Source: Roseburia faecis (lineage in GTDB: Bacteria; Bacillota; Clostridia; Lachnospirales; Lachnospiraceae). Taken from it: DNA of 64,000 nt. The notes below the pieces were generated by a model. It was not told the DNA's origin. It saw only the letters and a program-made list of their open reading frames with translations, and ran no database searches. The DNA lies in NCBI RefSeq assembly GCF_001406815.1, contig NZ_CVRR01000071.1, positions 62,001 through 126,000 on the forward strand, given 5' to 3'. Position numbers and translations under genes: made by a program. Shown here piece by piece: positions 40,043 through 44,099 of the stretch (position 1 is the first letter of the stretch; every line of letters starts with the position of its first letter).

Positions 40043-40071
40043 TTGTCGAACATTTGTTCTTGTGATATGAT
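40043..40071 (+). promoter_or_regulatory. Promoter of the radical SAM / DUF4130 operon
   Basis: TTGTCG (40043-40048), 17-bp spacer, extended -10 TGA-TATGAT (-10 at 40066-40071). The start is expected near 40078. The two LexA-type boxes overlap the spacer and the start, a layout that allows repression. Confidence 0.75.
40047..40060 (+). promoter_or_regulatory. LexA (SOS) operator 1
   Basis: CGAACATTTGTTCT matches the Gram-positive LexA/DinR box CGAAC-N4-GTTYG at both half sites (GAAC-ATTT-GTTC is a perfect inverted repeat). It overlaps the 3' end of the -35 box and most of the promoter spacer. Confidence 0.85.
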
Positions 40072-40077
40072 GTAAAA

Positions 40078-40091
40078 AGAACGGATGTTCG
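40078..40091 (+). promoter_or_regulatory. LexA (SOS) operator 2
   Basis: AGAACGGATGTTCG contains the perfect GAAC-N4-GTTC inverted repeat. Its centre is 31 bp from that of operator 1, three helix turns, and it covers the predicted transcription start, so two LexA dimers could bind the same face. Confidence 0.82.
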
Positions 40092-40116
40092 GCATTTTTG
40101 CGGAGGGATACTGGAT

Positions 40117-41661
40117 ATGAGAGAAATTTTGCAGATGGATCGTATCATGGAAAAACTAACCATACTTTCGGCAGCTGCCAGATATGATGTTGCGTGTACT
40201 TCCAGCGGGGTGCAGCGTGGAGGAGATGGTACGCATACGGGAAACGCATATGCAAGTGGAATCTGTCATGCATTTACCGGGGATGGGCGCTGCATTTCAC
40301 TGCTTAAGATTTTATATACCAATGATTGTATCTATGACTGCAAATATTGCAGGAACCGTTGCAGCAATGATGTGAAGCGTGTCAGTTTTACACCGGAGGA
40401 AATCTGTAAGCTCACGATGGAATTTTACCGCAGAAATTATATCGAAGGATTGTTCTTAAGTTCCGGAATTTTACATTCTCCGGATTATACCATGGGACTT
40501 TTATATGAGACCCTTTATTTATTGCGCACAAAATATCATTTTAACGGATATATACATGTAAAAGGAATTCCGGGAGCATCAGCGGATCTGCTGGAATTAA
40601 CGGGGTATCTTGCAGACCGCATGAGTGTAAATTTAGAACTTCCCACGGCCGATGCGCTGCGGCAGATTGCGCCTAACAAAGTGCGTAAAAACATCCTTTC
40701 CCCGATGCGCCAGTTACAGAATGGAATTCGGCAAAGCCGCGAGTTTCACGGGGTATCGAGTATGAAAAGCCGGATGTATCTGGATGAGAAAACCTATTAT
40801 AACCAGATGGCAGAGATGAAGGAAAGTTATGCCCGTCTGCAGGACTACCACGACGGAATTGCTGCCATCCGGGAGCATAAAGCGCGACAGAGTGCAGTAC
40901 AAAGCTGGGGAGAAGAAATTGCCGGTGGGGAGAATTCCAGCAGAGTGAGAAACGTGCAAAAGAAACTTCCGCAGATAACGCGGGGATTGATGCGGCCGGA
41001 TCGTTATTTTGTGCCGGCAGGACAGAGTACACAGATGGTGATCGGGGCATCGGATGAAAGTGATTATCAGATCATTTCGGTTTCAGAAGCTTTGTATCAG
41101 AAGTTTGAGATGAAGCGGATATTCTATTCTGCATTTATCAATGTGAATCATGACAGTTCCCTGCCAGATTTGCCCGGACCACCATTGTTACGTGAGCACA
41201 GGCTCTATCAGGCAGATTTTCTGTTGCGGTTTTATGGATTCCGCGCAGATGAATTGCTGTCAGAGAAAAATCCGAATTTTAACGAACAGATTGATCCGAA
41301 GTGTAATTGGGCAGTGCACCATCTGGAACTGTTTCCGGTGGAAATTAATCGTGCGGATTATTATACGCTGCTTCGTGTGCCGGGGATCGGAACAAAAAGT
41401 GCCCGCCGGATTATGGCGGCCCGGCGGTACGCAAAGCTGGATTTTTCAGATTTAAAGAAGATCGGTGTTGTTTTGAAACGTGCAGTGTATTTTATCACCT
41501 GTAAAGGAAAGATGATGTATCATACCCGTATGGAGGAAGGATATATTACACGGAATCTGATGTATCAGGAACGTCCGATGCAGATGCTGCTTTCGGATGG
41601 AACGGTGCAGACCTATGAGCAGTTATCACTGTTTGATGACAGGGGGAAAATTGTAGTATGA
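40117..41661 (+). CDS. Putative DNA modification/repair radical SAM protein
   Basis: The 514-residue protein has the radical SAM cluster C-I-Y-D-C-K-Y-C (C71, C75, C78) and a C-terminal helix-hairpin-helix (about 413-440, L-L-R-V-P-G-I-G-T-K-S-A-R-R-I) of the type that grips DNA. This matches the family I know as TIGR03916, linked in genomes to a uracil-DNA-glycosylase-related partner and predicted to act in DNA repair; the reaction is not established. The partner gene overlaps by 4 bases (ATGA). The promoter with two LexA boxes adds independent evidence for a DNA-damage role. GGAGGGA precedes the ATG. Confidence 0.9.
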   Translation: MREILQMDRIMEKLTILSAAARYDVACTSSGVQRGGDGTHTGNAYASGICHAFTGDGRCISLLKILYTNDCIYDCKYCRNRCSNDVKRVSFTPEEICKLTMEFYRRNYIEGLFLSSGILHSPDYTMGLLYETLYLLRTKYHFNGYIHVKGIPGASADLLELTGYLADRMSVNLELPTADALRQIAPNKVRKNILSPMRQLQNGIRQSREFHGVSSMKSRMYLDEKTYYNQMAEMKESYARLQDYHDGIAAIREHKARQSAVQSWGEEIAGGENSSRVRNVQKKLPQITRGLMRPDRYFVPAGQSTQMVIGASDESDYQIISVSEALYQKFEMKRIFYSAFINVNHDSSLPDLPGPPLLREHRLYQADFLLRFYGFRADELLSEKNPNFNEQIDPKCNWAVHHLELFPVEINRADYYTLLRVPGIGTKSARRIMAARRYAKLDFSDLKKIGVVLKRAVYFITCKGKMMYHTRMEEGYITRNLMYQERPMQMLLSDGTVQTYEQLSLFDDRGKIVV

Positions 41662-42416
41662 GTGAACAGATCGTGCTTCGATGTGAGGATTCTCTGGAAG
41701 GAATTTTTACAGCACTTTTCGATGCGTTTGTGTGTAAAAATAAAATGAAAGCTCCTTATACAGACAGTATTTCCATTGCGGCCGGTGAAGGAGAAATGAC
41801 TTTGTTTGCCAGGGAGATCGAAGTACAGACAGATGCGCAGAAAGTGCAGAAGACGGTTTACAGTATACAGTCAAGACTGGGGTATCCGGTGTATGATACA
41901 CTGCTTCATGCATTATGCCATTTTGCAGAGGACCGGGGGACAGCAGTTCTTGGATATCTGGTGCGTGCATTTGCACAGGGACGTGGTATTTCCGATCAGC
42001 TTGCCGATCCGTTTGCACTTCGGGTGATGGAGTTGTCCCGCAAGGTAGACAATGAGCTGGATAAGCTGCTGGGATTTGTGAGATTTCAGGATCTGGGAAG
42101 TATTCTTGTGGCGCAGCTTGCACCAAAATGCAATATGGTTCCATTGATGATGGATCATTTTTCGGATCGTTTTCCGGATGAAAATTTTATTCTCTACGAT
42201 GAAAACCGAAACCTTGCTGCCGTCCATGAAGCCGGACACCGCTGTGTTCTGGTGAGTGGAGAGCAGCTTCAGATTCCGCAGGGGCATATGGATTATTTTG
42301 CTGTGCTATGGAAACAGTATTTTGCCACCATGGAAATCCGGGAGCGTCACAATGAGCAGTGTCAGAATCATCTTCTGCCAAAATGGTATCGCAAATATAT
42401 GACGGAGTGGAATTAA
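41658..42416 (+). CDS. DUF4130 / TIGR03915-like putative DNA metabolism protein
   Basis: The 252-residue protein belongs to the family that accompanies the radical SAM/HhH protein; in other genomes this domain can be fused to a uracil-DNA glycosylase domain, which is absent here. Visible landmarks: V-Y-D-T-L-L-H-A-L-C-H-F near 80, R-K-V-D-N-E-L-D-K-L-L-G-F-V-R-F (~125-140), and a tail K-W-Y-R-K-Y-M-T-E. No known catalytic motif is recognised. Start overlaps the stop of the radical SAM gene, so both proteins are made in step, probably as a complex. Confidence 0.88.
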   Translation: MSEQIVLRCEDSLEGIFTALFDAFVCKNKMKAPYTDSISIAAGEGEMTLFAREIEVQTDAQKVQKTVYSIQSRLGYPVYDTLLHALCHFAEDRGTAVLGYLVRAFAQGRGISDQLADPFALRVMELSRKVDNELDKLLGFVRFQDLGSILVAQLAPKCNMVPLMMDHFSDRFPDENFILYDENRNLAAVHEAGHRCVLVSGEQLQIPQGHMDYFAVLWKQYFATMEIRERHNEQCQNHLLPKWYRKYMTEWN

Positions 42417-42461: not shown

Positions 42462-42538
42462 GAATAGAGTTGCAGTTATAAAACTATGGCAGAAAAGAAT
42501 GATAGCAGCTGGCACATAGGAAAATTGGAGGAATGGAA

Positions 42539-43042
42539 ATGGAACGTTGGGATATCTACGATAAAAATAAAGTGCGGACAGGAAGAACCATGGAGCGGAA
42601 TCATTTCAATCTGGCAGATGATGAGTATCATCTGACGGTACTTGGCGTGATCAGGCGTCCGGATGGCAGATTTCTGATTACTAAGCGTGTGATGACCAAA
42701 GCATGGGCACCCGGATGGTGGGAAGTTTCCGGTGGTGCTGCGCAGGCAGGAGAAGAATCGGAAGAGGCAGTGCGCAGGGAAGTTTTAGAAGAGACCGGAC
42801 TGGATGTAAAAGAAGCGGAAGGTGGTTATGTATTTACCTATCACAGAGAAAATCCGGGCGAAGGAGATAACTATTTCGTAGATGTTTATCGTTACACGAT
42901 GGATGTTACAGAACAAGATGTCCATCTGCAGACGGAAGAAACAGACGGATGTCGGTTTGCTACACCAGAAGAGATCAGGGAACTCGCAGATCAGGGAATT
43001 TTCCTGCATTATGATAGTATCAAACGGGTATTTGAGGACTAA
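42539..43042 (+). CDS. Nudix hydrolase
   Basis: The 167-residue protein contains a complete Nudix box G-x5-E-x7-R-E-V-x-E-E-x-G-L (about 61-83). It opens with W-D-I-Y-D-K-N-K-V-R-T-G, the sequence style of the Idi-like/YfcD group that hydrolyses diphosphate-containing small molecules. The start at 42539 follows GGAGG (42527-42531) by 7 bases; an ATG at 42533 is too near that site. Monocistronic: own promoter and terminator. Substrate unknown. Confidence 0.88.
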   Translation: MERWDIYDKNKVRTGRTMERNHFNLADDEYHLTVLGVIRRPDGRFLITKRVMTKAWAPGWWEVSGGAAQAGEESEEAVRREVLEETGLDVKEAEGGYVFTYHRENPGEGDNYFVDVYRYTMDVTEQDVHLQTEETDGCRFATPEEIRELADQGIFLHYDSIKRVFED

Positions 43043-43087
43043 TTACAATGGATAGGAGAATATTTTAAAAGATGTATTCCCATACGC

Positions 43088-43127
43088 AAAAAAAGGAATG
43101 TTGCAGAAATGCAACATTCCTTTTTTT
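43088..43127 (+). terminator. Bidirectional terminator between Nudix and csp genes
   Basis: A 17-bp stem made of A7-GGAATGTTGC and its complement GCAACATTCC-T7 (43088-43104 / 43111-43127) gives T runs on both strands. It can stop the Nudix transcript on the plus strand and the cold-shock transcript on the minus strand. Confidence 0.95.
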
Positions 43128-43194
43128 AATCGTTGTATCCAATATCTTATTCTAAAGAAAGAAAAAGGTACATAGAAACTAGATTAGTCGGCAA

Positions 43195-43398
43195 TTATTT
43201 CACTACTGTTACGTTAACTGCCTGAGGACCTTTAGCGCCATCAGTGATTTCGAATTCTACTGCTGCACCCTCTTCGAGAGATTTGAACCCCTCCATGTTA
43301 AGTCCTGAGTAATGTACGAATACATCGTGGCCGTCTTCAGCGGTGATGAATCCGTAACCCTTCTGGTTGTTAAACCATTTTACTGTACCTTTGTTCAT
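43195..43398 (-). CDS. csp: Cold-shock protein, CspA family
   Basis: The 67-residue single cold-shock domain has RNP1 K-G-Y-G-F-I and RNP2 D-V-F-V-H-Y, and starts [10 protein letters not shown]. It binds single-stranded RNA and DNA and acts as an RNA chaperone. The start at 43398 is set by GGAGGTAC seven bases upstream; longer in-frame starts are not needed. Own promoter and shared terminator. Confidence 0.97.
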
Positions 43399-43442
43399 CG
43401 AAAGTACCTCCAATATATTTGTGTTGCCTTGCAACTATGCTA

Positions 43443-43471
43443 AGAATAGCATAACCAATTGGAAATGTAAA
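43443..43471 (-). promoter_or_regulatory. Extended -10 promoter for the csp gene
   Basis: On the minus strand TTTACA (43471-43466), 17-bp spacer, TGC-TATTCT (-10 at 43448-43443). The leader of about 40 bases is short for a cold-shock gene. Confidence 0.75.
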
Positions 43472-43498
43472 GCAAAATCTTCGTGAAATAGCCGGATT

Positions 43499-44002
43499 TT
43501 AAAGCACTTCAAAAGAAATGTCGTGTTGTGAGAGAAATTGTCTGACAAATTTGTCCCATTCCGGTTCTAATGTCTTATCTGTGGAAAAAATGCGGTAAGA
43601 AATTCCGGTAGTCAGTGTAAGCATCTGATTTTGAAATTTGATGTTCATGGACATGGCGGAAATATCCGCCGGGGTATAGGAACTTCCGATTCGTTCCATG
43701 GTGCGTTTTTGATTTTCCGGCGACAGCATCAGGACGAATTTAAAGGAGGATGGAGCCTTTTTTCCTTTGATCAGGTCAAAGATGCGTGGACGGAGCATGG
43801 AGAATGGAAGAAAATGAAAAGTTTTAATACCGAGTTCTTCGGCTTCTGTATCTGTATAGAATCCTTTGGTAATAGTTCCATCAATCACATAGCTTGCAAA
43901 AGAAACGACAATGCCCTCCTGAAGCAGAAAATGGTCAAAAATTTCAGTTTTGAGAAATTTATTCATAAAATCTTTTTTGTTTGTTAATGCAAGAGCCAGC
44001 AT
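43499..44002 (-). CDS. DUF5721-like protein, 167 aa
   Basis: Starting at 44002 (GGGGAGG on the minus strand 7 bases before; a longer frame to 44086 lacks a site) the protein begins M-L-A-L-A-L-T-N-K-K-D-F-M-N-K-F-L and continues F-D-H-F-L-L-Q-E-G. This resembles a Lachnospiraceae family I recall as DUF5721; not certain. It looks soluble, mixed alpha/beta, without known motifs. It lies between csp and the divergent M18 aminopeptidase gene. Confidence 0.75.
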   Translation of the reverse strand: MLALALTNKKDFMNKFLKTEIFDHFLLQEGIVVSFASYVIDGTITKGFYTDTEAEELGIKTFHFLPFSMLRPRIFDLIKGKKAPSSFKFVLMLSPENQKRTMERIGSSYTPADISAMSMNIKFQNQMLTLTTGISYRIFSTDKTLEPEWDKFVRQFLSQHDISFEVL

Positions 44003-44070
44003 AAAAAACCTCCCCATTGTGAAACCGATAAAACGGCAGCTGATATAGTTTAATTTTAGCATGAGTGACT

Positions 44071-44099
44071 TCATCTTTTCAATCATAATGTGTTATAAT
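44071..44099 (+). promoter_or_regulatory. Extended -10 promoter for the M18 aminopeptidase
   Basis: TGT-TATAAT (-10 at 44094-44099) is a perfect extended -10; the -35 position (44071-44076, TCATCT) is poor. Extended -10 promoters often need no -35. Confidence 0.55.

Follow-up and report, generated by a model that had tools for sequence, protein, structure and literature searches.

The closest described relatives of the operon analysed here, a pair of genes for a radical SAM protein and a DUF4130 protein in a 64-kb stretch of Roseburia faecis DNA (the window; part of an assembly of 3.33 Mb in 100 contigs), are two operons that have been placed under LexA control. The first is CAC3343-CAC3344 of Clostridium acetobutylicum, an operon of the same kind for which LexA control was predicted in 2013 (PMC3828012); the likeness is one of description only, the organism belongs to another clostridial lineage, and DUF4130, the cysteines and the conservation across genera lie outside the passages of that paper that were available. 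The second is the COG1573-COG4277 operon, which according to the sections at hand forms part of the LexA networks of Bacteroidetes and for which older accounts from Verrucomicrobia and Alphaproteobacteria are cited (PMC8565304); it is LexA-controlled, as we predict for the window pair, but its genes, presented as a base-excision system, include one for a uracil-DNA glycosylase, whereas the window pair is without one. Excerpts of other papers mention radical SAM proteins, with the family unstated, in LexA regulons (PMC7739468, PMC9380542), and a protein of the same name that goes up on desiccation in Acinetobacter Tol 5 (PMC13130816) and in Fusobacterium nucleatum co-culture, where it is listed with uvrC and nth (PMC9848294). 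A LexA study of C. difficile does not use the word 'radical' in its main text (PMC4234289), and the literature that was searched, mostly without subscription journals and bioRxiv, contained no report of the reaction of the pair. LexA control of the pair has already been predicted, and an arrangement of this type was known before; new here are the footprint of the box across genera and three clues to the mechanism: six invariant cysteines, a possibly DHH-like fold and a fusion to a UdgX-like domain. COG4277 we take to be the COG of the radical SAM/helix-hairpin-helix family studied here.

Our reading is that the pair probably constitutes a LexA-repressed, damage-induced two-gene DNA-repair module; it is the mode of regulation, the family membership and the fusions to a glycosylase that suggest the repair role. 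The locus contains two perfect GAACN4GTTC words upstream of the pair, 31 bases apart from start to start, and is laid out as follows:

40043-40071, + strand: promoter-like site TTGTCG-N17-TATGAT with a TG before the -10 element (9 of 12 consensus bases; alone no evidence of function)
40048-40059, no strand: LexA-type box 1, GAACATTTGTTC, overlapping the last base of the -35 element and the spacer (supported by orthologous promoters)
40079-40090, no strand: LexA-type box 2, GAACGGATGTTC, where transcription is expected to start, judging from the -10 element
40102-40107, + strand: ribosome-binding site GGAGGG, predicted from the sequence
40117-41661, + strand: radical SAM protein of 514 amino acids, TIGR03916 / rSAM_link_UDG (open reading frame, NCBIfam profile, AlphaFold model)
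41658-42416, + strand: TIGR03915 / DUF4130 protein of 252 amino acids, its start overlapping the stop of the radical SAM gene by ATGA (open reading frame, profile)

An earlier note on this DNA had claimed two perfect LexA-type boxes 31 bp apart and a translationally coupled gene pair. Both boxes are present, the coordinates of the note being those of the cores plus one flanking base per side, and the pair was borne out as well: the open reading frames share the 4-base ATGA overlap and both proteins score above the curated cut-offs of their families, with 647.1 bits for TIGR03916 (cut-off 343.5; profile positions 1-414 of 415) and 208.8 bits for TIGR03915 (cut-off 112.25).

The conservation of the boxes was followed in a sample of 150 genomes of Lachnospiraceae, one per genus, from which the full-length radical SAM orthologues were taken. 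The gene exceeded the TIGR03916 cut-off in 87 of the 150 genomes, and Caulobacter, among the control genomes, has a TIGR03916 match too. From the 91 sampled genomes with any match to the family six were left out for partial or helix-hairpin-helix-only matches (G025, G031, G063, G072, G074 and G142), and 85 promoters, including that of the window, were scanned over a stretch that opens 250 bp ahead of the start codon and ends 20 bp beyond it. A box with at most one mismatch was found in 83 of the 85 promoters (mean 6.6 and maximum 14 in 100 dinucleotide shuffles of the same promoters), a perfect box in 43 (mean 0.3, maximum 2) and two or more box sites in 68 (mean 0.24, maximum 2), whereas each of seven control patterns, again at one mismatch, occurred in 2-9 of the promoters. 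Because this conservation at the promoters of some 85 genera lies far above shuffles and controls, the boxes are not explained by chance. The distances between neighbouring boxes in the 85 promoters fall mostly in two groups, of about 25-36 and 54-63 bp.

The genome itself indicates which regulator would bind these boxes. It has one lexA match, the promoter of which carries GAACATTTGTTT and, at a distance of 34 bp, GAACATGTGTTT, besides a third box with one mismatch; one of these lexA boxes and box 1 of the operon are identical but for the last base. The sole CGAACN4GTTCG of the genome stands about 18 bp before recA, and a GAACTAATGTTC box about 220 bp before uvrB. Since the box type of the operon thus also stands at the genome's own lexA, recA and uvrB, LexA stands far ahead as the candidate regulator of the operon, and we regard this assignment, made from sequence, as highly likely. 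The LexA control put forward in the earlier note is in this way supported both by the conservation and by the company of the boxes. The presence of lexA as such was tried as a correlate of the pair and rejected, as 136 of the 150 genomes match lexA, which is too common to inform. Outside the window a uvrB-like 5' fragment (G000:C7:1246-1656, profile positions 1-90; L114, L205), about 13 kb from the complete uvrB, has a perfect GAACAAATGTTC box of its own and looks like a truncated copy with an SOS promoter.

The word alone carries little information. Apart from the boxes at 40048 and 40079 the window has no perfect GAACN4GTTC site, but sites with at most one mismatch number 17 against 22.5 expected and are therefore uninformative by themselves; the whole assembly contains 26 perfect sites versus 48 for the reversed control pattern, i.e. 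there is no genome-wide enrichment. Eighteen of the 26 were inspected, of which 11 lie within long open reading frames and seven outside, the latter at recA, uvrB, the uvrB fragment, the radical SAM operon (two sites) and two uncharacterised open reading frames. As the word is no commoner than expected, the case is built on its position and conservation. The perfect sites at the two uncharacterised frames, both outside the window, one 81 bp before an open reading frame of 350 amino acids (position 1501 of L217; G000:C11:67009) and one 170 bp before a helix-turn-helix-like frame of 118 amino acids (position 1501 of L218; G000:C19:347345), are possible further LexA targets, judged by their placement.

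A second collection consisted of the best 80 named loci from a public collection (53 Bacillota, 5 Actinomycetota and 22 from other phyla, with lineages taken from the record titles), of which 5 of the 53 Bacillota and 4 of the 22 other loci had no usable upstream stretch and were left out; its tallies overlap with those of the family sample (e.g. L129 and L094) and are hence not independent. Among the evaluable Bacillota loci 46 of 48 had the box (two control patterns: 4 and 6 of 48). All five Actinomycetota loci had it as well (control patterns: none and 3 of 5), a set that carries little weight because it is small and one control pattern appears in three of the five. For the other phyla the LexA motifs tried were GAACN4GTTC and GAACN7GAAC. 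A perfect GAACN7GAAC, presumably the alphaproteobacterial LexA motif, was found in 2 of the 18 evaluable loci (the alphaproteobacterial L184 and L185, from Maritimibacter and Aurantimonas marianensis), where it stands, as in the viral-collection contig L200, at -17 to -20. By these comparisons the box leaves a clear footprint in Bacillota; outside that phylum the signs are no more than suggestive. Lack of conservation upstream of orthologues is what the earlier note had itself named as speaking against its claim; the boxes proved to be conserved in the family and in Bacillota alike.

Several observations weigh against the regulatory reading. The promoter of the earlier note is present, as the sole promoter-like site on the + strand from 39950 to the start codon, but its match is weak and such sites are equally common in shuffles (5 found versus 5.6 expected in the scanned stretch). 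A site with one mismatch also occurs in 26 of 255 coding windows, and no box was found at two of the 85 family promoters scanned (L092 and L108) or at two of the 48 evaluable Bacillota promoters. In the other phyla GAACN4GTTC was found in just one of 18 evaluable loci (controls: 1 and 3). The alphaproteobacterial locus L189 has neither GAACN4GTTC nor GAACN7GAAC, and the latter occurs in 2 of the 48 Bacillota loci as well, for which reasons GAACN7GAAC is weak evidence. Finally, 6 of the 91 genomes with the radical SAM family lack a lexA match; all six have boxes at the radical SAM gene, and because four of them are less than 70% complete the missing matches likely reflect missing sequence.

The two genes are near-constant companions. 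DUF4130 follows the radical SAM gene in 84 of the 85 family loci, the exception stopping at a contig edge, and among the best 80 named loci 68 have it as a separate protein and eight in fused form, while in four it was not found (three of these cut by the end of the stretch). Within the 22 loci of other phyla DUF4130 stands alone in 12, is extended into a further domain in eight and was not found in two. This further domain carries the marks of UdgX (PMC10359453; PMC10776899): TIGR03914, the NCBIfam name of which is UdgX family, matched in all seven that were scanned of the eight fused domains, and all eight contain GEQPG and a loop ending in R-x-H, while the expression for UdgX motif B matched in four. 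In the sections available to us, UdgX is described as marked by GEQPG and KRRIH, as excising uracil and bonding covalently to abasic DNA, and as having a precise physiological role that 'remains largely unknown' (PMC10359453). In two papers on UdgX the words 'radical', 'operon', 'DUF' and 'fused' are absent.

The window differs from these fused forms. Neither the radical SAM nor the DUF4130 protein contains a uracil-glycosylase domain at E <= 0.001, TIGR03914 has no match in the genome of the window, and none of the 150 family genomes reaches its cut-off (five have weaker matches). The earlier note had remarked that the glycosylase sometimes fused to DUF4130 is missing and that the partner may lie elsewhere; the absence from the operon stands, but the fused type is UdgX-like and the genome has no TIGR03914 to supply it. 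General PF03167 glycosylases do occur, two in the genome of the window and in 145 of the 150 relatives, and hence they are not specific to genomes that bear the pair. Because none of the 150 genomes reaches the UdgX cut-off yet 87 have the radical SAM gene, the core unit, as far as the genomes tell, is the radical SAM protein with DUF4130, to which UdgX is a lineage-specific addition. In Hymenobacter (L156, L158, L164 and L190) an alpha/beta-hydrolase-like gene lies between the two genes, and in one Lachnospiraceae metagenome-assembled genome a protein of 279 amino acids (L127:4473-5312).

The radical SAM protein offers two features that bear on its mechanism:

40195-40350, + strand: six invariant cysteines C27, C50, C59, C71, C75 and C78 (64 of 64 sequences of a multi-phylum alignment)
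41326-41511, + strand: C-terminal helix-hairpin-helix region, about residues 404-465, with predicted DNA binding (HHH_3 below cut-off, structure 2duy, conservation)

The alignment comprised 63 of the 76 eligible homologues and the window copy (64 sequences from many phyla). The pattern of six cysteines recurs in all 85 family proteins, with a spacing that is fixed except from C27 to C50. C71, C75 and C78 form the CX3CX2C radical SAM motif, and C27, C50 and C59 are, from their invariance, a candidate site for an auxiliary Fe-S cluster or other metal; this extra triad just before the motif is, we assume, at about the place of the auxiliary cluster of lipoyl synthase. The Pfam scores are slightly below cut-off for both HHH_3 (24.9; cut-off 27) and Radical_SAM (24.1; cut-off 29.5), and the helix-hairpin-helix stretch matches the ComEA-type structure 2duy (E 0.0031; 0.00034 with the alignment), with P422, G423 and G425 conserved in 64 of 64 sequences. 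In the AlphaFold model (mean predicted local distance difference test score, pLDDT, 83.1) residues from about 211 to 290 are a low-confidence insertion. Lipoyl synthase 4u0o tops the VIA list for this model (Z 18.2, 3.3 Å over 226 residues, model 9-371), tied with HydE 7o1o (Z 17.4, 2.4 Å over 213 residues, model 46-373); the identities are 12 and 16%, respectively, and in contrast to both enzymes the radical SAM protein has the helix-hairpin-helix tail and the proposed DNA role.

For the DUF4130 protein, with a model of mean pLDDT 93.4, two parts can be delineated:

41658-42047, + strand: N-terminal half, fold-aligned with the DHH domain of RecJ-type structures; DHH signature absent
42054-42287, + strand: residues 133-210, aligned with DHHA1-type domains; E133, R142, F168, R171 and D181 invariant

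Relative to the window copy the DUF4130 homologues (20-50% identity) diverge faster than those of the radical SAM protein (43-73%). The alignment held all 63 eligible homologues and the window copy (64 sequences), the glycosylase-fused forms being left out; E133, R142, F168, R171, D181 and R230 are conserved in all 64, the polar residues before 133 that reach 40 of 64 are only D59 (50), K62 (46) and R99 (48), and 56 have E or D at position 14. The best Foldseek match was PAP phosphatase 8a8k (E 1.5e-4, probability 1.00, yet a template modelling score, TM, of 0.33 and a root-mean-square deviation of 12.3); PggH, RecJ and NrnA-type proteins are among the best matches, and unrelated folds appear from rank 40 (E 0.19). 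The best VIA match was again 8a8k (Z 9.1, 5.1 Å over 191 residues); 7bih scored Z 8.4 and RecJ 5f55 Z 8.1. Of the 50 VIA matches listed 20 are titled RecJ, Cdc45 or DHH protein, and the other 30 we take to belong to the DHH-DHHA1 superfamily as well, including 14 replisome chains taken as Cdc45; no match to another superfamily is among the 50. Taken by themselves, residues 133-210 align with type II pyrophosphatases over 74-78 residues (3.3-4.0 Å).

The predicted fold thus resembles DHH-DHHA1 proteins such as RecJ, Cdc45 and NrnA, but the DUF4130 protein differs from them by a shorter N-terminal half and by the DHH signature of active phosphoesterases, which none of the 64 sequences contains. 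Going by the model, it may be built like RecJ/Cdc45, and we do not claim it as an active phosphoesterase. Three points tell against this structural part of the reading: i) the likeness is modest, at Z 9.1 versus the 7-8 typical of models without a clear match and with the low TM; ii) sequence proof of kinship with DHH was sought and came out negative, as hhalign against shallow DHH alignments of 8, 7 and 12 sequences gave no match and no DHH family was present among the 25 Pfam families listed out of 36 or among the sequence matches in the PDB, so that no sequence-profile similarity was found; and iii) in the radical SAM protein the stretch of the extra cysteines (about residues 20-60) is modelled at moderate confidence (block pLDDT 66-82).

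The surroundings of the pair were compared as well. Downstream of the operon (42533-44086) lie a Nudix hydrolase gene and, on the opposite strand, a gene for a DUF5721 protein. The neighbours within about 3 kb were compared all-against-all in the best 80 named loci and no cluster occurred in more than nine of these, by which a third conserved gene of the unit was rejected; the Nudix gene at 42533 therefore shows no sign of being part of it. A defence role found no PADLOC match at E <= 0.001. A phage origin of the pair was rejected too: the phage-filed records that were inspected look bacterial, with 8 to 9 further matching records besides. The 240-kb record 'Acinetobacter phage MD-2021a' (CAKLQH020000003.1) has glyS, glyQ and aidB beside the pair and looks like a bacterial chromosome, and an unannotated 'UNVERIFIED' record of 15 kb (MT835935.1), which matches the two proteins of the window at 99.6 and 100%, is by its sequence probably host DNA. 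A scan of viral contigs gave two relatives; in the contig L200 a tape-measure-like gene adjoins the pair, and to judge from this gene content it may be a prophage edge. As PHROG 6306 (unknown function) matches the DUF4130 protein (E 4e-7), phage copies may exist.

Taken as a repair module, the pair could work as follows. In the undamaged cell LexA dimers would occupy both operators, at the -35/spacer and at the start site, and exclude RNA polymerase, as their position and conservation suggest. Upon DNA damage activated RecA would promote self-cleavage of LexA and the operon would be derepressed together with lexA, recA and uvrB, with the ATGA overlap expected to couple translation of the two genes. 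The radical SAM protein would bind DNA via its helix-hairpin-helix tail and generate a 5'-deoxyadenosyl radical at the 4Fe-4S cluster held by C71, C75 and C78; the radical would then take a hydrogen from the damaged nucleotide, probably aided by a second metal centre at C27, C50 and C59. The DUF4130 protein, possibly with a short RecJ/Cdc45-like fold that lacks the DHH signature, might bind the DNA strand and present or process the lesion. What the comparisons show are the LexA-type operators, the conserved pairing, the pattern of cysteines and the UdgX-like fusions, and they support the regulation well; the kind of lesion, the radical chemistry, a second metal centre and the part played by DUF4130 are predictions. 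A bolder version, which we consider a long shot, would make the SOS-induced pair the physiological partner that UdgX is still missing: a radical enzyme carrying two Fe-S clusters and a RecJ/Cdc45-like DNA holder would together process lesions derived from uracil or from abasic sites, among them the covalent UdgX-DNA adduct, and would, where UdgX is absent, as here, act with the same core directly on the lesion.

The nearest solved structures of the radical SAM fold (lipoyl synthase, HydE and similar) would also suit an alternative in which the pair serves the damage response as a modifier of DNA or RNA, or promotes mutagenesis or tolerance, instead of repairing lesions. This we hold to be unlikely, given that the third fused domain, where present, is a UdgX-type uracil-DNA glycosylase, and such a fusion points to the handling of a damaged base. 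Direct reversal in the manner of spore photoproduct lyase, whereby the radical SAM protein alone would split a thymine photoproduct with DUF4130 as an accessory, finds some footing in the mention of SplB-like radical SAM photolyases in a related context, in the portion available, by Aravind et al. (PMC3765255). Spore photoproduct lyase is nevertheless absent from the Foldseek, VIA and sequence-profile matches listed, an absence that is no exclusion. The six invariant cysteines and the near-constant partner are, to our understanding, unlike that enzyme and count against direct reversal, which we regard as improbable. That the boxes are chance words or the sites of another regulator is very hard to believe: the 26 genomic sites, fewer than for the reversed control, the share of inspected sites within long open reading frames and the weak promoter match would agree with it, but it is at odds with the conservation across 85 genera and with the boxes of this type at lexA, recA and uvrB.

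The interest of the reading preferred here, a LexA-controlled repair module, is that a widespread uncharacterised gene pair is made testable. The LexA box across some 85 genera points to DNA damage as the condition under which a phenotype should be sought, and openings for concrete biochemical tests come from the UdgX link, from the three additional cysteines and from a partner that may resemble RecJ/Cdc45. If the reading is true, anaerobic gut bacteria would have a repair route that runs through a radical SAM enzyme.

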